From the NCBI RefSeq assembly GCF_900101745.1, contig NZ_FNAD01000002.1:372001-436000 (forward strand): a stretch of DNA of 64,000 nucleotides, written 5' to 3'. Source of the DNA: Glycomyces harbinensis. GTDB lineage: Bacteria > Actinomycetota > Actinomycetes > Mycobacteriales > Micromonosporaceae. Under the pieces are notes generated by a model, which saw nothing but the letters and a program-made list of their open reading frames with translations, was not told the DNA's origin and did not search any database. The translations under genes were made by a program, and so were the position numbers. Shown here in pieces: positions 53,647-63,975 of this stretch (its first letter is position 1; the number at the start of each line of letters is the position of its first letter).

Positions 53647-53704
53647 CCCGGCCGGGCCGCGTCGCCGGCGACGGGTTGTCGGTCCCGTGGGCTAGGTTGT
53701 GGCC

Positions 53705-54478
53705 GTGGCACAGGTGCGGTACCGAAAACTCGATGAACTGACCGACGACGAGGTCTACGCGGCGTACGAGCCGCCCGAGCCGGACTGGCTGCGGGTCAAC
53801 TTCGTCTCCAGCGCCGACGGCGCGGCGACCCTCGAAGGGCTCTCCGGCCCGCTCTCGGGTGCGGAGGACAAGCGGGTCTTCAAGGTCCTGCGGGCGCGCT
53901 GCGACGTGCTCCTGGCGGGTTCGGGGACCGTGCGCGCGGAAGGGTACGGGCCGCTGGTGCTCTCGCCCGATCGCTCGGCCTGGCGCCGGGCGCGGGGCCT
54001 GCCGGAGGTGCCCGTGATGGCGGTCGTCTCGCGCACGGCCGCGCTCGACCCGGCCGCGGGGATCTTCACCGAGGCGCCGCGGCGTCCGATCCTCATCGTC
54101 CCGGCGGACCTGCCGTCCGACCGCACGGCGCCGTTCCGGGAGGTCGCGGACGTGATCGCGCTCGGCACCGGCGCGGTCGACCTCGCCGCGGCCGTCGCGG
54201 CCCTGCGCGAGCGGGGCCTGCGCCAGATCCTGTGCGAGGGCGGGCCGCACGTGTTCGGGGACCTCATCGCGGCCGACCTGGCCGACGAGCTCGACCTGAC
54301 GCTCGCGCCGAAGCTGGTGGGGCCCGGGCCGATCCGCATCGCCGCGGGCCACGGCGACGCGGCGGGCGAGCGGCCCGCGGCCTCTGAGGCGATCCCGCTC
54401 GAGCTGCGACACGTCCTCGAAGCCGGAGGCAACCTCATCCTGCGCTACGTGCGTTCCTCCCGGGGCTCCGCTCTTTGA
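53705..54478 (+). CDS. RibD C-terminal-type pyrimidine reductase family protein
   Basis: This 257-residue protein has the DHFR-like RibD fold: WLRVNFVSSADGAATLEG, AEDKRVFKVLRARCDVLLAGSG (split here in two parts), and ILCEGGPHVFGDL. In riboflavin synthesis this domain reduces the pyrimidine ribosylamine; stand-alone copies in actinobacteria may do other reductions. TAGGTT lies six bases before the GTG, so it is probably leaderless. Its TGA stop abuts the left end of the TnpB element. Confidence 0.85.
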   Translation: MAQVRYRKLDELTDDEVYAAYEPPEPDWLRVNFVSSADGAATLEGLSGPLSGAEDKRVFKVLRARCDVLLAGSGTVRAEGYGPLVLSPDRSAWRRARGLPEVPVMAVVSRTAALDPAAGIFTEAPRRPILIVPADLPSDRTAPFREVADVIALGTGAVDLAAAVAALRERGLRQILCEGGPHVFGDLIAADLADELDLTLAPKLVGPGPIRIAAGHGDAAGERPAASEAIPLELRHVLEAGGNLILRYVRSSRGSAL

Positions 54479-54583
54479 GACGGGGTCGTACGACGCCGGT
54501 CGCCCGCCCGAACGCCTCATGAAGCGGGACTGGTCGAACCGCAGGTCTGTATGGCTGTCGTACCCGTCGCCTAGGGTTTCGGT

Positions 54584-55873
54584 GTGCTTCTCCGGTATCG
54601 ATTCCGCCTCTACCCGACGCGCCCACAGCGCATCGCCTTGTCGCGGGCGTTCGGGTGCGCGCGGGTGGTGTTTAACGACACAGTGGCCGCGAGAAGACTC
54701 GCCCACGCGGAGGGCCTTCCGTACCCGACCAGTGCAACGCTGTCGAAGCGTTTGATCACCGAAGCGAAGCGCACCCCGGAGCGGGCGTGGCTGGGCGAGG
54801 TATCAGCGGTGGCGCTTCAGCAGGCCCTGGCGGACGCTGATCAGGCTTTCAGGAACTTCTTCGCCTCGCTCAAAGGCCGACGGCAAGGCTCCCGGATGGG
54901 GCCGCCGCGGTTCAAGCGCCGCACTGGCACGCAGTCGATCCGGTTCACTCGCAACGCCCGGTTCGAAGTGTTGGCCAACGGAAGGCTTCACCTGCCGAAG
55001 GTCGGGGATCTCAAGGTCGCGTGGTCGCGGGACCTGCCCTCCAAGCCGTCCTCGGTCACCGTGCTCATGTCGCCGACCGGGAAGTACTACGCCAGTTTCG
55101 TCGTCACCGTCGAGGACGGGACCGACTTCCCGGGCCTGCTTGCCGACCCTGAAGCAGAGACCGGGATCGATCTCGGGCTCAAGGACTTCGCGGTCCTTCG
55201 CGGCGGCAAGGTCATCGAGAACCCGCGATTCTTCGCCCGCCTGGAGCAGAAACTGAAGAAGGCACAGCGGGCCTTGTCCCGCAAAGCCAAGGGATCACAG
55301 AACCAGGCGAAGGCCCGTCTGCAGGTCGCGAAGATCCACGAGAGGGTCAAACAGGCAAGGTCCGACTGGATCGACAAGCAGGTCAAGACGATAGTCGCCG
55401 AGAACCAAGGCATCTATGTCGAAGACCTGGGAGTCAAGAGCCTCTCGCGCGGTCGGCACTCGAAGTCAATTCAGGACGCGGCGTTCGGGATGTTCCTGAC
55501 CCGGCTCGAGTCCAAAGCGAATAGGGCCGGGCGAACCTTCGTGAGGGTCGACCGGTTCTTCCCCTCCACGCGCCTGTGCTCGGCGTGCGGTGCGCTCACC
55601 GGCCCGAGGGGGCTGGAGGGCCTGAAGGTCCGGGCCTGGGCGTGCGGGTGCGGGGCGTTCCACGACCGTGACGCCAACGCCGAGATCAACATCCGCCGCG
55701 AAGGCAAGCGTATGGTGGCCGAGGGACACTCGGACACTCGAAACGCCTCTGGACAGGACGTCAGACCAGGGACACTTGGCAGACCTGGAAACCCCCGAAA
55801 GGGGAAGAACGAGGAACCCGACCGTAGCCGGTCCGCGACTGCGGACCGCAAGCCGGGAATCCCCGCCCATTGA
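54584..55873 (+). CDS. tnpB: TnpB RNA-guided endonuclease
   Basis: This 429-residue protein starts LLRYRFRLYPT, as in IS605-type TnpB. The RuvC residues are intact: Asp near 196 (GIDLGLKDF), Glu near 280 (VEDLGVKSL) and Asp near 361-363 (FHDRDANAEINI). The zinc site is C-x2-C (LCSACG) and C-x-C (WACGCG). The C-terminal 45 residues are the usual basic, poorly conserved tail. TAGGGT lies six bases before the GTG, so leaderless transcription is likely. TnpB cuts target DNA guided by the right-end RNA. Confidence 0.93.
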   Translation: MLLRYRFRLYPTRPQRIALSRAFGCARVVFNDTVAARRLAHAEGLPYPTSATLSKRLITEAKRTPERAWLGEVSAVALQQALADADQAFRNFFASLKGRRQGSRMGPPRFKRRTGTQSIRFTRNARFEVLANGRLHLPKVGDLKVAWSRDLPSKPSSVTVLMSPTGKYYASFVVTVEDGTDFPGLLADPEAETGIDLGLKDFAVLRGGKVIENPRFFARLEQKLKKAQRALSRKAKGSQNQAKARLQVAKIHERVKQARSDWIDKQVKTIVAENQGIYVEDLGVKSLSRGRHSKSIQDAAFGMFLTRLESKANRAGRTFVRVDRFFPSTRLCSACGALTGPRGLEGLKVRAWACGCGAFHDRDANAEINIRREGKRMVAEGHSDTRNASGQDVRPGTLGRPGNPRKGKNEEPDRSRSATADRKPGIPAH

Positions 55874-55891
55874 GAGCGGGAAGGATGTCAA
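55830..55891 (+). ncRNA. 3' part of the TnpB guide RNA (omegaRNA) scaffold
   Basis: Two stem-loops, GGTCCGC-GACT-GCGGACC (55830-55847) and CCCGC-N9-GCGGG (55862-55880), overlap the end of tnpB; its stop lies in the second loop. The sequence then ends GGATGTCAA. In this family the guide is the 15-20 bases just after the right end, here starting GTGCGAGGATCAAGCG. The 5' end of the RNA cannot be set from sequence. Confidence 0.7.
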
Positions 55892-55907
55892 GTGCGAGGA
55901 TCAAGCG

Positions 55908-57632
55908 ATGAGTGAATCGGTGGGCCGCGTGCTCGGCACGGAGGACGCGACGCCCCTGTCGTTCTGGGTCGGCGTCGGCCCGGAGTCCTACGCCCAGCTC
56001 GACGACGTGCTCACCACCGAGCGCCAGGTCCCCGGGATCGGCACCGTCCGCATCTCGGGCGTGGTCACCGCGGTCCGCTCGCGCCACGAGGGCGCGCAGT
56101 TCGACTCCGACGTATTCGACATCGCCGGGGGCCTCCTCCCGGCCCAGGTGCAGGAGGCCGCCGAGGTCACGGTCACCCGGGTCGAGCCCGAGGTGTTCGT
56201 GCCCCCGCGCCCCGGCGCCGAGGTCCAGCGCGCCTCGGGAGAGGACCGCGACCGGGCCCTGTACTTCGACGGCATGAGCCGCCAAGTGCCCCTTGGGTTC
56301 TCGCGGGACGGCCAGCCGGTGTTCCTCAACCCCGACTTCCTCGACGGCACCCGCGGCGCGCACGTCTCGATCTCGGGCATCTCCGGCGTCGCCACGAAGA
56401 CCTCGTTCGCGACCTGGCTCCTGTACTCGCTGCTGCACTCGGGCGCCCTCGGCGCCGAGGCCGCGAACACCAAGGCGCTCATCTTCAACGTCAAGGGCGA
56501 GGACCTGCTGCTCCTCGACCACGACAACACGAAGATCGACGACTCGATCCGCGACACGTACCGGCGCCTCGGCATGGAGCCCGGCGCGTTCAAGTCCGTC
56601 GAGGTCCTCGCCCCGCCGCGCGAGGGCGACGCCAACGGCGTCCCCGACGTGGCCTGCCGCTCCACCGGCGTCGACGCGTTCTACTGGACGCTCTCGGAGT
56701 TCTGCCAGCTGAGCCTGCTGCCGTTCGTGTTCGCCGACGGCGACGACGACCGCCAGCAGTACACGATGGTCGTCCACCAGGTCGCCGCCCGGCTGCGCAA
56801 AGAGGCCCGCCCCAAGGACAACGGGGCGGTCGCGCTCGACGGGCGGCTGCTCACCTCCTACCGCGACCTCGTCGACCTCATCTGCGAGCGCCTCGCCGAC
56901 GACGAGACCCGCACCGAGTGGGCCGGGTCGGCGATCGGCCTGGGCACCGTCAACGCGTTCATCCGGCGCCTCATCGCCTCCGGGCGCGACATCGGCCGCC
57001 TCATCCGCGGCGACCTGCCGCCCCGCGGCCTCGCCCTCGCCTCCGACGCGCAGGTCACCGTGGTCGACCTGCACAACCTGCCCGACCGGGCCCAGCGCTT
57101 CGTCGTCGGCGTCGTGCTGCGCACCGAGTTCGAGCGCAAGGAGAAGGCCGGGTCGGCCCGGCCGCTCCAGTTCGTCGTCCTCGACGAGCTCAACAAGTAC
57201 GCGCCGCGGGAGGGCACCAGCCCGATCAAGGACATCCTGCTCGACATCGCCGAACGCGGCCGCTCGCTGGGGGTCATCCTCATCGGCGCCCAGCAGACCG
57301 CATCCGAAGTGGAGCGGCGGATCGCCTCGAACTCGGCGATCCGCGTCGTCGGCCGGCTCGACGCCGCCGAGGCCACGCGCCCCGAGTACGGCTTCCTCAC
57401 CCAGGCCCAGCGGATGCGCGTGCTCATGGCCAAGCCCGGCACCATGTTCGTGGCCCAGCCCGAACTCCCGGTGCCGCTCGTGGTGAACTTCCCGTTCCCC
57501 GCCTGGGCCACCCGCCCCGCCGAAGCCGGCTCCGCGCCCGCCACCGCGCGGCCGGGCCGCTCGATCTCAGCGACCGCCAGGGTCGACCCGTTCGACCTCG
57601 CCGGCGACGACGAAGACGACATACCGTTTTAG
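55908..57632 (+). CDS. HerA-like ATPase (HAS-barrel plus motor)
   Basis: This 574-residue protein has an N-terminal barrel (about 15-105), then a RecA-like motor. The Walker A region near 156-166 reads GISGVATKTS, with Thr in place of the usual Gly before Lys, as in the actinobacterial branch. Walker B is FVVLDELNKYAP near 423. Later motifs include ERGRSLGVILIGAQQT. HerA is a hexameric DNA translocase that works with NurA and Mre11-Rad50. It precedes sbcD by 12 bases. Confidence 0.85.
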   Translation: MSESVGRVLGTEDATPLSFWVGVGPESYAQLDDVLTTERQVPGIGTVRISGVVTAVRSRHEGAQFDSDVFDIAGGLLPAQVQEAAEVTVTRVEPEVFVPPRPGAEVQRASGEDRDRALYFDGMSRQVPLGFSRDGQPVFLNPDFLDGTRGAHVSISGISGVATKTSFATWLLYSLLHSGALGAEAANTKALIFNVKGEDLLLLDHDNTKIDDSIRDTYRRLGMEPGAFKSVEVLAPPREGDANGVPDVACRSTGVDAFYWTLSEFCQLSLLPFVFADGDDDRQQYTMVVHQVAARLRKEARPKDNGAVALDGRLLTSYRDLVDLICERLADDETRTEWAGSAIGLGTVNAFIRRLIASGRDIGRLIRGDLPPRGLALASDAQVTVVDLHNLPDRAQRFVVGVVLRTEFERKEKAGSARPLQFVVLDELNKYAPREGTSPIKDILLDIAERGRSLGVILIGAQQTASEVERRIASNSAIRVVGRLDAAEATRPEYGFLTQAQRMRVLMAKPGTMFVAQPELPVPLVVNFPFPAWATRPAEAGSAPATARPGRSISATARVDPFDLAGDDEDDIPF

Positions 57633-57643
57633 GAGCGCGAGCC

Positions 57644-58798
57644 TTGCGGATTCTGCACACTTCCGACTGGCACGTCGGCGTCACCATGAAGGGCCGATCG
57701 CGCCTGGACGAGCAGCGCGCCGTCTTCAAGCAGATCGTCGACGTCGCCAGAGACGAACAGGTCGACCTGGTCATCGTGGCCGGGGACCTGTTCGACACCG
57801 CCTCGCCCTCCAGCGAGGCCCAGAAGCTCCTGACCGCCGCGCTCTCGGCCCTGCACAAGACCGGGGCCGAAGTCGTCGTCATCGCCGGGAACCACGACAA
57901 CGGCAGGGCCCTCGACGCGCTGCGCGAGTGGGCCCACGCCGCCGGCATCCACCTGCGCGGCAGCCTCGGCAAGGCCGCCGACCACCTCGTCACCGGGGCC
58001 ACGCGGGACGGCGAGCGCTGGAAGATCGCGGCCCTGCCGTTCATCGCCCAGCGCCACGCCGTGCGGGCCGCCGAGCTGTTCGAACTCGGCGCGGCCGGCG
58101 CCGAGGCGAACTACGCCGACCACCTGCGCCGGCTCGTCGCCGCGCTCACGCAGGACTTCGGCGCCGACACCGTCAACCTGTTCACCGGTCACCTCACCGT
58201 CGTCGGCGGCAAAGTCGGCGGCGGCGAGCGCGAGGTCCACACCGTGGCCGACTACGCCGTGCCCGCCGCGATCTTCCCGCCCACGACCAGCTATGTCGCC
58301 CTGGGCCACCTGCACAAGGCGCAGGCCATCAACGGGCCCTGCCCGATCCGGTACTCCGGCGGGCCCCTCGCGGTCGACTTCGGCGAGGAGGACCACACGC
58401 CGAGCGTCACGATCGTCGACGCGTCCGCCGGGATCCCCGCGCGGGCGCGGACCGTCCCGCTCACGGCCGCCGTCCCGCTCCAGACCGTGCGCGGCACCCT
58501 CGCGGACCTCGCGAAGGCCAAGGTGGACGAGCGGGCGTGGCTGCGGGTGTTCGTGACCGAGCCGGCCCGCGCCGGACTGCGCGGCGAGGTCGCCGACCTG
58601 TTCCCGCGCGCCGTCCAGATCCACATCGACCCGGTGATGCGCATGGACGCCGCGACCCCGCGCCAGCGGCGGTCCGGGCGCAGCCCCGGCGAGCTGTTCA
58701 CCAGCTACCTCACCGAGAACGGCCACGACGACCCGGCCGTGGCCGGGCTGTTCGCGAAGCTCTACGAAGACACCCAGACCGTCGCCGAGGAGGCCTAA
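57644..58798 (+). CDS. sbcD: exonuclease SbcD (Mre11-type)
   Basis: This 384-residue protein has the Mre11 phosphodiesterase motifs: ILHTSDWHVG, VAGDLFDT, VIAGNHDNG, FTGHLTVVGG and ALGHLHKAQ. It begins at a TTG after AGGAG, just as the HerA gene ends. A capping domain follows. It cuts DNA ends and hairpins with SbcC. The sbcC GTG follows directly at the stop. Confidence 0.95.
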   Translation: MRILHTSDWHVGVTMKGRSRLDEQRAVFKQIVDVARDEQVDLVIVAGDLFDTASPSSEAQKLLTAALSALHKTGAEVVVIAGNHDNGRALDALREWAHAAGIHLRGSLGKAADHLVTGATRDGERWKIAALPFIAQRHAVRAAELFELGAAGAEANYADHLRRLVAALTQDFGADTVNLFTGHLTVVGGKVGGGEREVHTVADYAVPAAIFPPTTSYVALGHLHKAQAINGPCPIRYSGGPLAVDFGEEDHTPSVTIVDASAGIPARARTVPLTAAVPLQTVRGTLADLAKAKVDERAWLRVFVTEPARAGLRGEVADLFPRAVQIHIDPVMRMDAATPRQRRSGRSPGELFTSYLTENGHDDPAVAGLFAKLYEDTQTVAEEA

Positions 58799-61231
58799 GT
58801 GCGTCCTATCCGACTGGACCTCCAGGGATTCGGCTCCTACACCGGGTCCGAGACCTTCGACTTCACCGACACCGATTTCTTCGCGCTCACCGGGCCCACC
58901 GGCGCCGGGAAGTCCACCGTGCTCGACGCGATGTGCTTCGCCCTGTACGGGCGCACGCCGCGCTGGCGCGTGAACACGACGCAGAACGCCATCGCGCCCT
59001 CGGCCGTCGAGGGCCGGGTGCGGCTCGTGTTCGCCGCCGCCGGAACGAACTACGTGGCCACCAGGATCCTGCGGCGCGACCGCAACGGCAAGGTCAAGAC
59101 CACCACCGCGGCGCTGGAGCAGCTGCCCGGCGGCGTGAACCCGGCCGACGACGGCGAGCTGGTCGAAGGGCTCGGCAAGGCGCTCGCCGGAAGCCCGAGC
59201 GAGGTCAGCACCGCGGCCGAGCGCGTGATCGGGCTGCCGTTCGAGCAGTTCACCAAGTGCGTGCTCCTCCCCCAGGGCGAGTTCGCGGAGTTCCTGCACG
59301 CCTCGCCCGCCGACCGGCGCAAGATCCTCGAGAACCTCCTGGGCCACAGCGTCTACCGGCGCGTCCAGCAGCTCGCCGGGGCGAAGCGGGACGCCGCGAC
59401 CACGGCGATGAAGACCCTCGAAGCGCAGCTGGCGCGCGTCCCGGTGGTGTCCGACGCCGAGATCGCCGCGGCCGCCGAACGCGTCGAGCAGTTGGAGAAG
59501 CTCACCGAACCGGTGCGGGACAAGGCGACCGCGCTCGACGGGCTCGCCGCCGCGGTCGAGACCGCGCGCCGCCGCTTGAGCGAGGCCGAGTCGAACCTCG
59601 GATCGCTGACGTACATCAAGCAGCCCGAAGGGGTCGTCGACATCGCGGCCCAGATCGCGAGCGCGAACGGCGCCGTGACCGAGAAGGCCGCCGAGGTCGA
59701 GGCGACCGAGGCCGAGGACGACCGGCTCCGGACCGAACTGGACGGACTCGACCTGGCGCTCATCGAACGCCAGATCAAGGCCTGGGCCGAACTGGGCGAG
59801 ACCGAGTCGAAGCTCAAGACCGGCCAGGAGCTGACCGAGGAGCTGCGCGACCAGTTCGCCGAGGCCAAGGAGCTCGAGGAGGCCGCGTCCGAAGAGGTCG
59901 AGATCCAGCACGCCTCGCTGCACAAGATCCGCATGGCCGAACTGGCCGGGACCCTCAGGGCCGGCCTGGAGGTCGGCGACGAGTGCCCGGTCTGCGACCG
60001 CCCGGTGGAGACCGTGCCCGAGCACGACCTGTCGGAGTCGATGCAGCAGGCCGAGGAGGCCTCGCGCACCGCGACGAACGAGTTCCGGGACGCGCAGGCC
60101 GCCGTGGTCGCGCTCCAGACGAAGCTGGAGAACTACGAGGAGCGGCTCACCGAGCTGCAACTGGCCCAGCGGCGGCTGAAGAAGAAGCTCGAAGACGTCC
60201 CCGAACCCGCGGCGCTGCAGGCGAAGCGGGCCTCCTCGGAGGAGGCGCGGCAGCAGCTGGCCGGGACCGGGGCGGCGCTCAAGGCCGCGCGGCGGGCCCT
60301 GCGGGAGGCCGAGAAGCGCAAGGCGGCCGTGGACGAGCGGCGGCAGCGGGCCTGGAAGGAGTTCCAGCACGCGCGCGACCAGGTGGCCGTGCTCGGCCCG
60401 CCGGCCGCCGGCGACGACCTGGCCGCGAGCTGGGCGAACCTGACCGACTGGGCCGCGGCGTCGCTGGAGCGCGCGGAGGCCGAGCGCGAGGCCGCCCGCA
60501 CCGAGCTCGCGAGCCTGGACGGGCGGGCGGGGACGCTGCGGAAGGAGCTGCGGTTCGCCTTGGGCGAGTTCGACGTCGACGTGCCGCGTTCGGGCACCGG
60601 CGGGGACTACGTCGGCCGCCACGCGGCCGCGGTCGAGTCGGCGCGGGCCGCCTCGGCGCGGCTGGTGGAGACGCGGAACCAGCGCGTCGACCTCGACGCC
60701 GACACCCGCAAGTACCAGCACGAGGCGGAGATCGCGAAGGCGCTCGCGTCCCACCTGGAGGCGCGCCGGTTCATGGAGTGGCTGCTGAGCGAGGCGCTGG
60801 ACGAGCTCGTGGCGGGCGCGACGCTGATGCTCAACCGGATCACCGGCGGCCAGTACGACCTGATCTACCGCGACCAGGACTTCTGGGTGGTCGACCATCA
60901 CGACGCGGACATGGCGCGCCCGGCGCGGGGCCTGTCGGGCGGCGAGACGTTCGCGGCGTCGCTGTCGCTGGCGCTCGCGCTGAGCGACCAGCTCGCGAGC
61001 CTCGCGCGGCACGGGGCGTGCCTGGAGTCGATCATCCTGGACGAGGGCTTCGGGACGCTCGACCCCGAGACGCTCGACGCGGTGGCGACCACGCTGGAGG
61101 CGCTGACGCTCTCGGCCGGGCGGACCGTGGGCCTCATCACCCACGTGCCGGAGCTGGCCGAGCGGGTGCCGGTGCGGTTCCGGATCACCAAGGACGCGAA
61201 GGGCTCGCACGTGGAGAAGACCTGGAGTTAG
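58799..61231 (+). CDS. sbcC: SbcC/Rad50-type SMC ATPase
   Basis: This 810-residue protein has Walker A GPTGAGKST at 32-40, a zinc-hook CPVC near 396-399 in the coiled-coil middle, signature LSGGETFAASLSLALAL and Walker B IILDEGFGTLD. The coiled coils (about 180-395 and 410-640) are shorter than those of E. coli SbcC. It begins at a GTG right after the sbcD stop, so the two are translated together. Confidence 0.95.
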   Translation: MRPIRLDLQGFGSYTGSETFDFTDTDFFALTGPTGAGKSTVLDAMCFALYGRTPRWRVNTTQNAIAPSAVEGRVRLVFAAAGTNYVATRILRRDRNGKVKTTTAALEQLPGGVNPADDGELVEGLGKALAGSPSEVSTAAERVIGLPFEQFTKCVLLPQGEFAEFLHASPADRRKILENLLGHSVYRRVQQLAGAKRDAATTAMKTLEAQLARVPVVSDAEIAAAAERVEQLEKLTEPVRDKATALDGLAAAVETARRRLSEAESNLGSLTYIKQPEGVVDIAAQIASANGAVTEKAAEVEATEAEDDRLRTELDGLDLALIERQIKAWAELGETESKLKTGQELTEELRDQFAEAKELEEAASEEVEIQHASLHKIRMAELAGTLRAGLEVGDECPVCDRPVETVPEHDLSESMQQAEEASRTATNEFRDAQAAVVALQTKLENYEERLTELQLAQRRLKKKLEDVPEPAALQAKRASSEEARQQLAGTGAALKAARRALREAEKRKAAVDERRQRAWKEFQHARDQVAVLGPPAAGDDLAASWANLTDWAAASLERAEAEREAARTELASLDGRAGTLRKELRFALGEFDVDVPRSGTGGDYVGRHAAAVESARAASARLVETRNQRVDLDADTRKYQHEAEIAKALASHLEARRFMEWLLSEALDELVAGATLMLNRITGGQYDLIYRDQDFWVVDHHDADMARPARGLSGGETFAASLSLALALSDQLASLARHGACLESIILDEGFGTLDPETLDAVATTLEALTLSAGRTVGLITHVPELAERVPVRFRITKDAKGSHVEKTWS

Positions 61232-61408
61232 GCCGGGCCCGGACCTGGCGCGCGAGGGACGTCCTCGGTCGCGGCGCGGACCCCCGCCGCCGACGGTCGA
61301 AGCGCCATGCGCCCGCGCTGACGGCCGGTGAGGGACCCGACTGTGCCGCAATGTACTCGCGGCCGGTTCACCGTCCGTTCAACGCGGACGCGGGAGTACT
61401 ACAGGAGC

Positions 61409-62176
61409 ATGAGCACATTGCACCTTCGCGGCAGCCGCCGCAGACTCCTCACCGGCGCCGGCACCGTGGGCGCCGGCGCGATCGCCCTCCTCACCCTCGA
61501 CGCCTGCGGCGGGGGCGGCGGCGAGGGCGCCGCCGCCCAGACCGCTCCCGACGCACCCGACCTGACCGGCCTCGAATCGGCCGAGGACATCTGGCAGGCC
61601 CTCCTCGACGGCAACCGGCGCTGGGCCGACGGCGCGGCCGTCCACCCCCACACCGACGAGGACCTCCGCGAGGAGCTGGTCGAAGGCCAGGCGCCCCGCG
61701 CCGCGGTCTTCACCTGCGTCGACTCCCGCGTCGCGCCCGAACTCGTCTTCGACACCGGACTGGGCGACCTCATGGTCACCCGCACCGCCGGGAACGTCTT
61801 CGACCCCCTGGTCTCCGAGTCCGTCTCCTACGGCCCCGCCGCCCTGGAGGCCCCGCTGCTGGTCGTCCTCGGACACCAGAAATGCGGGGCCGTCACCGCC
61901 GCCCACGAGGCGCTCCTGGCCGAGGTGGAGGGCGCCGAGCCCGAGGACCACGGGTACGCGCTCCCCGAGACCGTCAACGCCCTGCGCCCGGCCTACGAGG
62001 CGGCCGCGGGCGGGCCAGGGGACCCGGTCGACGCCATGATCGAGGCGAACGTCCTGTTGACCGTGGAGGCGCTCAAGGCGCACCCGAACCTCGCCGAGCG
62101 GGTCGCCGACGGCGCGCTCACCGTGGTCGGCGCCGTCTACTCGCTCGAGACGGGCCTGGTCGCCGAGGTCTCCTGA
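61409..62176 (+). CDS. exported beta-carbonic anhydrase, probable Tat lipoprotein
   Basis: This 255-residue protein has a twin-arginine signal (SRRRLLTGAGTVGAGAIALL) ending in LDAC, an imperfect lipobox. Then comes a beta-carbonic anhydrase: CVDSRV (Cys-x-Asp-x-Arg) near 102-107 and GHQKCGAV with His-x2-Cys near 156-159. It converts CO2 to bicarbonate outside the membrane. It interrupts the herA-sbcD-sbcC-nurA set. The start is uncertain: the ATG at 61409 has AGGAG too close. Confidence 0.85.
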   Translation: MSTLHLRGSRRRLLTGAGTVGAGAIALLTLDACGGGGGEGAAAQTAPDAPDLTGLESAEDIWQALLDGNRRWADGAAVHPHTDEDLREELVEGQAPRAAVFTCVDSRVAPELVFDTGLGDLMVTRTAGNVFDPLVSESVSYGPAALEAPLLVVLGHQKCGAVTAAHEALLAEVEGAEPEDHGYALPETVNALRPAYEAAAGGPGDPVDAMIEANVLLTVEALKAHPNLAERVADGALTVVGAVYSLETGLVAEVS

Positions 62177-62246
62177 CCGCGGGGCGCGCGGGCGTCGACG
62201 CTGAGCAGTACGCTGGGCCGCAACCGTTCCGGAAAGTTGGTGCGCC

Positions 62247-63170
62247 TTGCAGATCACCGTCGACGCCTGGGACCCGTCCTTCGCCGACAATCCCGAGTCG
62301 CCCTCGAGCAAGAACCAGGCGATCGTGGAGCCCTCGGTCGAGCTCGATCCCGCCGACTGGCGGCCGATCGACGCGCCCGCGAACGGGCCGCGGCGGATCG
62401 TCGTGGTCGACGGCGTGCGCCGCGTCGATGCGAGGGTCGAACTCATCGACGACGGGGAGCGCTGGCCGGGCGTGTGCGTGTCCTGGGCCGCGGGAGCGGT
62501 CGCGTGCGATCTGGACGGCAGGAACTCGGCGGTCACCGAGGCGGCCGTGGAGCGCGGCCTGTTCGCCGCCGTCGACCCCGGCGCCGACTTCGGGCGCTAT
62601 CCGCACCGGGAGGTCGAGTCCGCCGACCCCGCCGAGCTCATCGGCGCCGCGCAGGCGGCGATGGCCGAGCTGGAGGCGAAGGTGGCCTCCATGGTCGCGA
62701 TGGACGCCGAGCTGTCGGTCCTCGACGGTCCGCTGCGCGGGCGCACCCGGCTGCCGAACTCGGTGGGCTACATCAAGAGCCATCAGCGCGCCTACCTGCC
62801 CAAGCAGCTCAACGTGGTCGTGGAGCGGCTCAAGCCGGGCCAGCGGACCCCGGTGTTCCACCTGACCTCGGGCTGGCCGCGCTACACCTGGTACCTGCGC
62901 CTGCCCGGCACGTCCTCGCGCGGCTGGGCCGGGGTCGCCCGGATCGAGGCCGCGACCGACCTCTCCGAGGAGGCCGCGATCGCCCTGGCGGACGCCACGG
63001 CGGCGTCGCTGCCGCCGCTCGGCTCGGCCGCGCACAAGGACGCGCGAGCCCCGCAGAACCTCACCCCGATCGCCGGGCTCGAACGCCGGCTCAAGCGGAT
63101 GCTCGGCGACCCGCGGCTGCTCCTGCGCTCGGTGCGCGCCGCGTCCCTGGAGACCGGCGGACCGTCCTAG
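62247..63170 (+). CDS. NurA-like nuclease
   Basis: This 307-residue protein has the NurA pattern: RRIVVVDGVRRVDARV with Asp near 55, and in the second half ELSVLDGPLRGRTRLPN (Asp near 159) followed by VGYIKSH and RYTWYLRLPGTSS. NurA is a 5'-3' nuclease that works with HerA to resect DNA ends. The herA-like gene lies 4.6 kb upstream on the same strand with sbcD and sbcC between, which supports the call. The start is a TTG with GGAAAG ten bases upstream; a possible -10, TACGCT, lies near 62208. Confidence 0.75.
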   Translation: MQITVDAWDPSFADNPESPSSKNQAIVEPSVELDPADWRPIDAPANGPRRIVVVDGVRRVDARVELIDDGERWPGVCVSWAAGAVACDLDGRNSAVTEAAVERGLFAAVDPGADFGRYPHREVESADPAELIGAAQAAMAELEAKVASMVAMDAELSVLDGPLRGRTRLPNSVGYIKSHQRAYLPKQLNVVVERLKPGQRTPVFHLTSGWPRYTWYLRLPGTSSRGWAGVARIEAATDLSEEAAIALADATAASLPPLGSAAHKDARAPQNLTPIAGLERRLKRMLGDPRLLLRSVRAASLETGGPS

Positions 63171-63195
63171 CGCCGCTCCCGCCGGAGAACGACGG

Positions 63196-63224
63196 GAGGC
63201 CCCGGCGCGATGCGCCAGGGCCTC
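63196..63224. terminator. bidirectional terminator between the NurA-like and transglycosylase genes
   Basis: Stem GAGGCCC/GGGCCTC plus GGCGC/GCGCC with one mismatch lies between convergent stops. Confidence 0.8.
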
Positions 63225-63264
63225 CTCGGGTCAGCGAACTCCGGGGTCCGCGTGAAATGCAGGT

Positions 63265-63975
63265 CTAGTACCAGCCGTTGGACTCGCTGTGCGCCCAGGC
63301 GCCGCACGGGCTGCCGTAGCGGCCCTCGATGTACTCCAGGCCCCAGGCGATCTGGGTGGCCGGGTTGGTCTCCCAGTCGTCGCCGTTGGCGGCCATCTTG
63401 TCGCCGGGGAGCGACTGCGGGATGCCGTAGGCGCCCGAACCGGAGTTGTAGGCGGACTCGTCCCAGCCGGACTCGCGGTCCCACAGGCTCACGAGGCAGC
63501 CCACTTCGTCCATGCCCCAGCCGGCGTCGAGGGTCATGGTGCAGCCGATGGCCTTGTTGCCCGAGTACTCGGAGCAGTCGCCGGAGACCTCGACGGAGGT
63601 CCCGGAGTCGTCGGAGGAGTCCTCGACGGGCGCTTCCTCTTCCTCCTCCTCGACGGGGACCTCGGCGGCCTCGGCCTTGGCGGCGGCGGCCGTGCCGCCC
63701 TCCTTGACCGGGAGGATGCTCTCCATGGGGTCGACCTGGTCCCACTGGCGGTCGGCGTCGCCGGCGTCGGCGACGATCTCGGCCGCGAGCAGATCCTGGG
63801 CGGTGGGGTCCTCGGTGTTGATGATCGCGGCGCTGGCGCTGCTGGCGGTGCCGAAGGCGACCAGGACGGCGACGCCGGACGCGAACACCCGGGTGCGCAC
63901 GACGTGCCGCAGGCCGCCGGGTCGGCGGTCGTCGGATCGGTGCCTCGCTCGGGAGGGCTTCATGCGGGTAAACAT
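63265..63975 (-). CDS. secreted lytic transglycosylase-like protein
   Basis: This 236-residue protein has a signal peptide (hydrophobic FASGVAVLVAFGTASSASA ending AxA). A Glu-rich low-complexity linker follows (VEEEEEEAPVEDSSDD). The C-terminal domain, from about 155, has LWDRESGWDESAYNSGSGAYG and AWGLEYIEGRYGSP, the SLT/aggregation-promoting-factor pattern, with the likely catalytic Glu in DRESGW. It acts on peptidoglycan. TAGGGT lies seven bases before the ATG, so it is probably leaderless; its -35 is near or beyond the window edge. Confidence 0.88.
   Translation of the reverse strand: MFTRMKPSRARHRSDDRRPGGLRHVVRTRVFASGVAVLVAFGTASSASAAIINTEDPTAQDLLAAEIVADAGDADRQWDQVDPMESILPVKEGGTAAAAKAEAAEVPVEEEEEEAPVEDSSDDSGTSVEVSGDCSEYSGNKAIGCTMTLDAGWGMDEVGCLVSLWDRESGWDESAYNSGSGAYGIPQSLPGDKMAANGDDWETNPATQIAWGLEYIEGRYGSPCGAWAHSESNGWY

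Follow-up and report, generated by a model that had tools for sequence, protein, structure and literature searches.

Genes of the locus and their products

The stretch of DNA analyzed here (the window) comprises 64,000 nucleotides of the genome of Glycomyces harbinensis (contig NZ_FNAD01000002.1, positions 372,001 to 436,000) and contains four genes of a putative DNA end-resection system, all on the forward strand. These are herA (55908–57632; 574 aa, ATG start), encoding an FtsK/HerA-type DNA translocase; sbcD (57644–58798; 384 aa, TTG start inferred from relatives), encoding an Mre11-type nuclease of a HerA-linked subfamily; sbcC (58799–61231; 810 aa, GTG start), encoding a Rad50-type ATPase; and nurA (62247–63170; 307 aa, TTG start), encoding an RNase H-like nuclease. 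The first-pass annotation of the window had placed a HerA, an SbcD, a zinc-hook SbcC and a NurA on this strand at the same coordinates, and all four genes were found there. The herA, sbcD and sbcC genes are tightly packed: sbcD starts 11 bases past the herA stop codon, with AGGAG at 57631–57635, and sbcC starts immediately after the sbcD stop codon; plausible ribosome sites were noted for both sbcD and sbcC. The host genome has a length of 6.17 Mb, and its HerA is 96% identical to the HerA of Glycomyces terrestris and other Glycomyces.

On the basis of profile searches and structure prediction, the protein encoded at 62247–63170 was assigned to the NurA nuclease family. A phmmer search matched it to chain 7f6d_H of the Deinococcus HerA-NurA structure (E 1.8e-19), and a profile built from 47 actinobacterial NurA proteins, including that of the window, reached E 3.6e-58 to the same chain and E 6e-21 to 1zup_A (Thermotoga TM1739). 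Modeling using AlphaFold2 led to a confident model (pLDDT 91.7, pTM 0.88), which was closest to Thermotoga 1zup_A (Z 22.9; 263 residues, 3.1 A) and Deinococcus 7f6d_G (Z 22.8; 279 residues, 2.7 A), followed by Sulfolobus NurA 2ygk_A (Z 15.4). The next structural matches were the nuclease chain of TdpAB, 8wfd_G (Z 13.2), the chains of the Thermococcus HerA-NurA complex and Pyrococcus NurA 3tai, 3taz and 3tal (Z 10.0–12.9), and endonuclease V (Z up to 10.7). Foldseek matched the model to 7f6d_G (5.9e-17), 1zup_B (1.2e-12) and 2ygk_A (1.3e-6). The call of NurA in the first-pass annotation had been made from two DG motifs and the gene context; it is borne out by the profile match and the predicted fold, and none of the rows in the 47-row alignment departs from either motif (D55-G56 and D160-G161).

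The Pfam NurA model gave the window protein 16.8 bits, under its cut-off of 21, which is a matter of the model threshold and not a biological trait; at E ≤ 0.01 it matched 19 of the 47 family members. A scan of the whole host genome with this model returned nothing at E ≤ 1, whereas the model matched in 7 of 14 control genomes, so an annotation relying on Pfam only would overlook nurA. No NCBIfam model matched the window NurA at E ≤ 1.

Residues D55 (codon at 62409–62411, forward strand), K177 and R267 of the window NurA correspond to D53, K201 and R309 of Deinococcus NurA, and mutants in these three Deinococcus residues lost nuclease activity (PMC9960219). The correspondence uses a 20-residue offset of chain numbering, which we inferred from the positions of D53, K201, R309 and motif 3. 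D55 was present in 97/97 rows having a letter at this position (7 of 104 are gapped), and K177 and R267 were each present in 104/104; from the initial 110 sequences, three matches below 250 bits and three ORFs (open reading frames) without a recognizable start motif had been left out. Tryptophan W8, important in Deinococcus NurA (PMC9960219), occupies the same position 8 in both proteins, which supports the TTG start assigned in the window.

The window HerA matched Deinococcus HerA (7f6d_B) with E 1.5e-137, and no Pfam family matched it at E ≤ 1. Its P-loop, GISGVATKT (56376–56402, forward strand; containing K164 and T165), is common to Deinococcus HerA, and the pattern GxSG[VI]ATKT was found in 128/128 relatives. 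This is a variant Walker A motif with one extra residue between the first glycine and the lysine compared with the classical motif, and this may explain the absence of a Pfam match. Of the Walker A/B, catalytic and translocation residues defined in Deinococcus HerA, K164, T165, D199, D426 and E427 (K175, T176, D220, D487 and E488 in Deinococcus) are kept in all 128 relatives, R434 (R495) in 125 and R491 (R552) in 124. By analogy with the Deinococcus protein, HerA would form a hexameric ring moving duplex DNA.

SbcD scored 196 bits with TIGR00619, above the cut-off of 77.65. Positions D13, H15, D53, N88, H89, H188, H227 and H229 (numbered from 57629), which form the metallophosphoesterase active site, are kept in 122/122 sequences. 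SbcC matched AAA_23 (1.5e-24) and SbcC_Walker_B (2e-11), both above the Pfam cut-off; at 810 aa it is short, and it reached 249 bits with TIGR00618, under the cut-off of 478.5. The zinc hook of SbcC, CPVC (residues 396–399; 59984–59995, forward strand), has both cysteines retained in 106/106 aligned proteins. Note that SbcD matches of less than about 300 aa and SbcC matches of less than about 600 aa were left out of these alignments. Each of the four proteins retains the residues required for its part.

Conservation of the gene set and the SbcD subfamily

Samples of genomes from the host family, class and phylum were searched for HerA (E ≤ 1e-30 in the class sample), with the host counted in every sample. 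HerA was present in 61/61 genomes of the family, 10/148 of the class and 77/396 of the phylum. In the class sample, NurA was detected at E ≤ 1e-38 in the same ten genomes as HerA, with two more matches only at 4.8e-4 and 9.2e-4, and SbcD matches of at least 335 bits were found in these ten genomes as well, the remaining SbcD matches being at or below 158 bits. The presence of HerA throughout the family sample is as expected for a housekeeping function.

To describe the linkage of the four genes, 128 HerA neighborhoods were compiled: 9 from the class, 80 from genome contigs and 39 from the phylum. The 80 contig loci had the highest scores among at least 540, come chiefly from Micromonospora and Glycomyces, and so are not independent; the 39 phylum loci were hand-chosen from the 77 HerA-positive genomes. 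All four genes were detected in 9/9 class loci, 67/80 contig loci and 33/39 phylum loci. Linkage was counted in the 99 loci whose sequence extended 3 kb or more upstream and 6 kb or more downstream of HerA; the other 29 of the 128 were left out. The four genes lie together on one strand in 94 of the 99 loci, and a set recurring in this way is not a product of chance, though many of these loci come from close relatives. Two of the five exceptions retain the order and strand with herA set apart: sbcD-sbcC-nurA lie about 10 kb downstream of herA in locus L187 and about 14 kb downstream in L185. These two genomes, each represented by a second locus (L226 and L244, respectively), belong to one family. 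In L037 and L218 sbcD is seen at the extreme end of the stretch, and L038 runs into a contig end. Linkage extends across the phylum, and this gene set is an old one that many actinobacteria have conserved.

Two gene orders were found among the 94 loci, namely herA-sbcD-sbcC-nurA, as in the window, in 77 and nurA-herA-sbcD-sbcC in 17. On a tree of SbcD proteins (55 rows from such four-gene cassettes), the order label changes once, and the loci with nurA in the last position form one clade (SH-aLRT 98). The order with nurA first also occurs on two cyanobacterial plasmids, AP018315.1 (L230; typed as conjugative) and NZ_CP091916.1 (L235), where in the latter the cassette runs across the record start. 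In the annotation of AP018315.1, nurA and herA are given as hypothetical proteins. PMC5448004 places nurA ahead of hepA, the herA homologue, in Thermus and describes sbcD and sbcC downstream of hepA in Oceanithermus. Since nurA comes first both in the cyanobacterial plasmids and in Oceanithermus, this order is probably ancestral and that of the window derived.

A phylogenetic analysis of 79 SbcD proteins separated 57 HerA-linked sequences, together with one from locus L129, from 21 ordinary actinobacterial SbcD with support of 100/100. In the widest tree, to which 11 SbcD from plasmid records were added, the subfamily comprised 33 rows (support 100/99), that is, all 30 cassette rows used, including the two cyanobacterial plasmids, and the SbcD of three pairs of sbcC and sbcD without an adjacent HerA. 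These pairs belong to L129/L224, to a Euzebya plasmid (L231) and to a Thermus plasmid (L232). The genome carrying L129 and L224, which we guess to be a Streptomyces, has no HerA at E ≤ 1e-30; neither HerA nor NurA was found within the stretches read of L224, L231 and L232, that of the Thermus plasmid being 13.1 kb long. The nurA-hepA pair was present in all Thermus genomes available at the time of PMC5448004. Eight of the 11 added proteins fell outside the subfamily with the ordinary type, one, from Acetoanaerobium, being placed by the subfamily base on a weak branch (87/73). Four genomes (G100, G111, G131 and G132) contained two SbcD matches of unlike score, and the second copies of G100 and G131 were of the ordinary type on the trees.

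HerA linkage does not divide SbcD cleanly: two changes of the cassette label are required on the tree of 79 proteins and four on the widest one, because the three HerA-less pairs fall within the subfamily. A seven-position signature of cassette SbcD, derived from 55 cassette and 21 ordinary actinobacterial sequences with L129 left out, also failed when other bacteria were added, since R25, A40, Y162, Y209, P217 and F375 were each found in at least one outsider, R25 also in Escherichia coli. Position 250 (numbered from 57629) held up best: among the rows displayed from the widest tree, the cassette rows L229, L230, L235 and L243 and all three HerA-less members have Asp, and the nine others carry Ser, Gly or Asn. 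Ser also occupies this position in E. coli and in each of the 21 ordinary actinobacterial proteins compared. The association of this SbcD subfamily with HerA is therefore strong and not exclusive, and its deep placement is unsure because of long branches.

It is difficult to account for the linkage of the four genes in two orders, and for an SbcD subfamily that tracks HerA in actinobacteria and cyanobacteria, unless the genes share a function. This speaks against the view that HerA-NurA and SbcCD are neighbors by history only, the former acting at stalled forks or in intercellular DNA transfer and the latter separately cutting hairpins. Such a separation would fit the Thermus plasmid pair, the effect of mutations in Thermus HepA on DNA donation (PMC5448004) and the lack of clear repair defects in Deinococcus or Thermus deletions (PMC9960219). 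However, archaeal Mre11-Rad50 was co-precipitated with HerA (PMC2288612), and we regard a merely historical neighborhood as improbable.

HerA-nuclease systems and TdpAB are known to have a defense function. Comparison with PADLOC profiles gave partial matches for HerA (mad8, 39 bits; HerA models, up to 23 bits), SbcC (mad3, 106 bits; LmuB, 99 bits) and SbcD (effector models, up to 30 bits); NurA had no match at E ≤ 0.1, and ATPases of the SbcC kind are hit by a number of unrelated models. In addition to the cyanobacterial plasmids, a Streptomyces plasmid (NZ_CP134205.1, 408745–434481; L229) contains the full cassette beside TIGR02678, TIGR02679, TIGR02680 and DUF2397 genes, which we take to be a Wadjet defense system, with a restriction endonuclease gene nearby. 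This plasmid indicates that the cassette can also move. It could be supposed that the cassette mainly serves defense against phages and plasmids, HerA driving a nuclease that destroys the ends of foreign DNA, and the NurA-like fold of the TdpAB nuclease chain would agree with this. However, this chain is much more distant from the window NurA than the repair NurA proteins are (Z 13.2 versus 22.8–22.9). HerA was found in 6 of 72,556 plasmid records and 2 of 50,697 phage records, the latter at 27–28% identity. In the host family every one of the 61 genomes has HerA, and the same gene recurs upstream of it, at a distance of up to about 7 kb, in 75/128 loci, which points to a core and not a patchy element there. 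A main role in defense thus seems unlikely. One of the six plasmid records is a Nonomuraea record of 11.85 Mb, which is the size of a chromosome.

Neighboring genes and insertions in Glycomyces

The first-pass annotation, right about its four genes, mentioned neither the carbonic anhydrase gene that fills the gap from sbcC to nurA nor the TnpB element directly upstream of herA. The former (61409–62176, forward strand) encodes a beta-carbonic anhydrase (Pfam Pro_CA, 7.1e-32) with a twin-arginine/lipoprotein-like N-terminus. It occupies the same gap in 6 of 11 Glycomyces loci (L021, L022 and L024–L027) and is not found there in L023 and L028–L031. We judged it to be an insertion that stands outside the resection system.

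The inserted TnpB element (54454–55891) lies in the interval between a reductase gene and herA. Its gene (54584–55873, forward strand; NF040570, 293.9 bits with a cut-off of 100) ends 34 bases ahead of herA. The element is not found at this site in the 11 Glycomyces compared, where homology extends up to, or almost up to, 54453 and picks up again at 55892–55893. The right end of the element lies directly against the region of the herA start, and a TnpB guide running beyond this end would match sequence at the start of herA. The RibD-like reductase gene (53699–54478, forward strand) has tblastn matches in 75/128 HerA loci, from adjoining herA to about 7 kb upstream. In five Glycomyces relatives its end overlaps the herA start. 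This gene is a frequent neighbor of herA in the family and not a core part of the set, and its recurrence points to vertical inheritance of the locus in the host family.

The TnpB element parting herA from a gene that overlaps it in five relatives, and the carbonic anhydrase gene inside the set, could have broken expression and crippled the module in this strain. No match of the sigma-70 type was found by a promoter scan of 55700–63300, which catches actinobacterial promoters poorly; terminator matches in the same region numbered 2, with 2.3 expected. However, all four reading frames are intact, the ribosome sites of sbcD and sbcC are plausible, and six of the 11 Glycomyces tolerate the carbonic anhydrase gene. 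Loss of function in this strain is accordingly very doubtful.

A putative end-resection module

Taken as a whole, the four genes quite probably encode a module that resects the ends of double-strand breaks, belongs to the bacterial HerA-NurA type, includes an SbcCD pair of its own and works beside AdnAB. In such a module SbcC-SbcD, the counterpart of Rad50-Mre11, would bind the broken end and trim or unblock it. The end may then be handed over, possibly through direct contact of SbcD with HerA, and a HerA hexamer would load on the duplex and pump DNA into a NurA dimer by ATP hydrolysis. The NurA dimer would split the strands and cut the 5' strand, so that a 3' single-stranded tail would be left for RecA. 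This order of steps is drawn from work on Deinococcus (PMC9960219), where the HerA-NurA complex was solved and mutants define its mechanism, and on archaea (PMC2288612, PMC4351679, PMC8708640), where Mre11, Rad50 and HerA co-precipitate (PMC2288612). In Glycomyces the four proteins would be co-expressed, may form a physical four-part complex and would be used for break repair in the cell.

Several observations weigh against this interpretation. When nurA or herA was deleted in Deinococcus or Thermus, resistance to radiation and mitomycin changed modestly or even rose (PMC9960219), and so it is not established that break repair requires HerA-NurA of the bacterial type. HerA occurs in only 10 of the 148 class genomes, and in the other sampled family of the host order it was found in 0 of the 14 genomes listed, all 14 of which have an AdnAB subunit; the module is therefore dispensable in kin. 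The three subfamily SbcCD pairs without adjacent HerA, the gene parting nurA from sbcC in this host and the lack of a promoter match count in the same direction. So do two differences in residues of the Deinococcus complex. The acidic triad of Deinococcus HerA, D78/E80/D81, is only partly kept, the window protein having D68, F70 and D71 (Asp at position 68 in 128/128 relatives, Phe at position 70 in 115/128, and Asp at position 71 in only 13/128, the window among them). The basic residues K299 and K303 of Deinococcus NurA are lost in the window, where the motif 3 region contains P257, A261, H263 and K264. The contact of HerA with NurA is described as hydrophobic in archaea and ionic in Deinococcus, and the interface residues align poorly in other bacteria, with other charged residues close by (PMC9960219). 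Together with the partly kept triad, this suggests that HerA and NurA of actinobacteria may meet at an interface other than the ionic one seen in Deinococcus.

The remark of the first-pass annotation that the set stands beside other repair systems is in agreement with two adjacent host genes having UvrD helicase and PDDEXK_1 domains, an AdnA/AdnB-like pair. AdnAB is, like the proposed module, a motor-nuclease for break ends; it consists of UvrD-type helicases fused to a PD-(D/E)XK nuclease and is unrelated to HerA-NurA. In the phylum sample (AdnAB subunit at E ≤ 1e-50), 46 genomes had both HerA and an AdnAB subunit, 31 only HerA, 55 only AdnAB and 264 neither. The assumption that HerA-NurA replaces a missing AdnAB was rejected, the AdnAB subunit being present in 46/77 HerA-positive and 55/319 HerA-negative genomes, a positive association that is confounded by phylogeny and depends on the cut-off. 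The co-occurrence in 46 genomes rather points to HerA-NurA as an extra machine and not a substitute.

The likeness to the archaeal resection machine, also put forward in the first-pass annotation, held for the four-gene set and the NurA fold; the nearest characterized relative is, however, the bacterial HerA-NurA of Deinococcus. The archaeal operon, e.g., that of Sulfolobus (PMC2288612, PMC4351679), combines the same four functions, in S. islandicus in the order herA, mre11, rad50, nurA, whereas the window has the bacterial SbcC and SbcD instead of archaeal Rad50 and Mre11. Both window proteins are homologous to Deinococcus radiodurans HerA and NurA (7f6d; PMC9960219) over most of their length and share the P-loop and the catalytic and translocation residues; the differences lie in the acidic triad and in some of the basic NurA patch. 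The Deinococcus nurA and herA genes were removed jointly "as an operon" (PMC9960219); the window set adds sbcD and sbcC.

A four-gene set in a bacterium is not new, as nurA-hepA-sbcD-sbcC has been described for Oceanithermus profundus (PMC5448004). There the same four families stand side by side, with nurA upstream of herA and not downstream of sbcC as in the window. That paper suggests a recruitment of SbcDC in O. profundus; in the trees obtained here, which include no Oceanithermus SbcD, the HerA-linked SbcD of actinobacteria and cyanobacteria form one subfamily. A review refers to HerA-NurA in actinobacteria (PMC8708640). As a single find, the locus is a well-supported annotation and an example of a known repair machine, not a surprise. 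Bacterial HerA neighborhoods were reportedly listed in the work of Iyer et al. (2004) on the FtsK-HerA superfamily. In the literature covered, which was partial and mostly consisted of titles and abstract openings, nothing was found on an actinobacterial operon, the two gene orders or a HerA-linked SbcD subfamily, and absence from print is not claimed.

The HerA-linked SbcCD subfamily is the most interesting open claim. In the broader scenario, an ancient SbcCD subfamily dedicated to HerA-NurA and marked by Asp250 of SbcD would have accompanied herA and nurA through actinobacteria and cyanobacteria, and probably through Deinococcota, before a single move took nurA from the first place in the operon to the last. 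Actinomycetes such as Glycomyces would run AdnAB and HerA-NurA-SbcCD as two independent resection machines, and the latter would be held together by a HerA-NurA interface unlike the ionic one of Deinococcus. We propose this scenario tentatively, holding its truth as a whole to be slightly less likely than its failure.

The use of bacterial HerA-NurA in the cell is unsettled, given that loss of the genes in Deinococcus and Thermus had mild or even contrary consequences (PMC9960219). Actinobacteria offer a cleaner test case, because the four genes lie together, HerA is present throughout the family sample and the SbcD is distinct from the ordinary one. The set could be deleted as a unit in a culturable Micromonospora or Salinispora, with or without AdnAB. 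The set also makes it possible to ask in a mesophile how Mre11-Rad50 passes the end on to HerA-NurA, a question that comes from the archaea.

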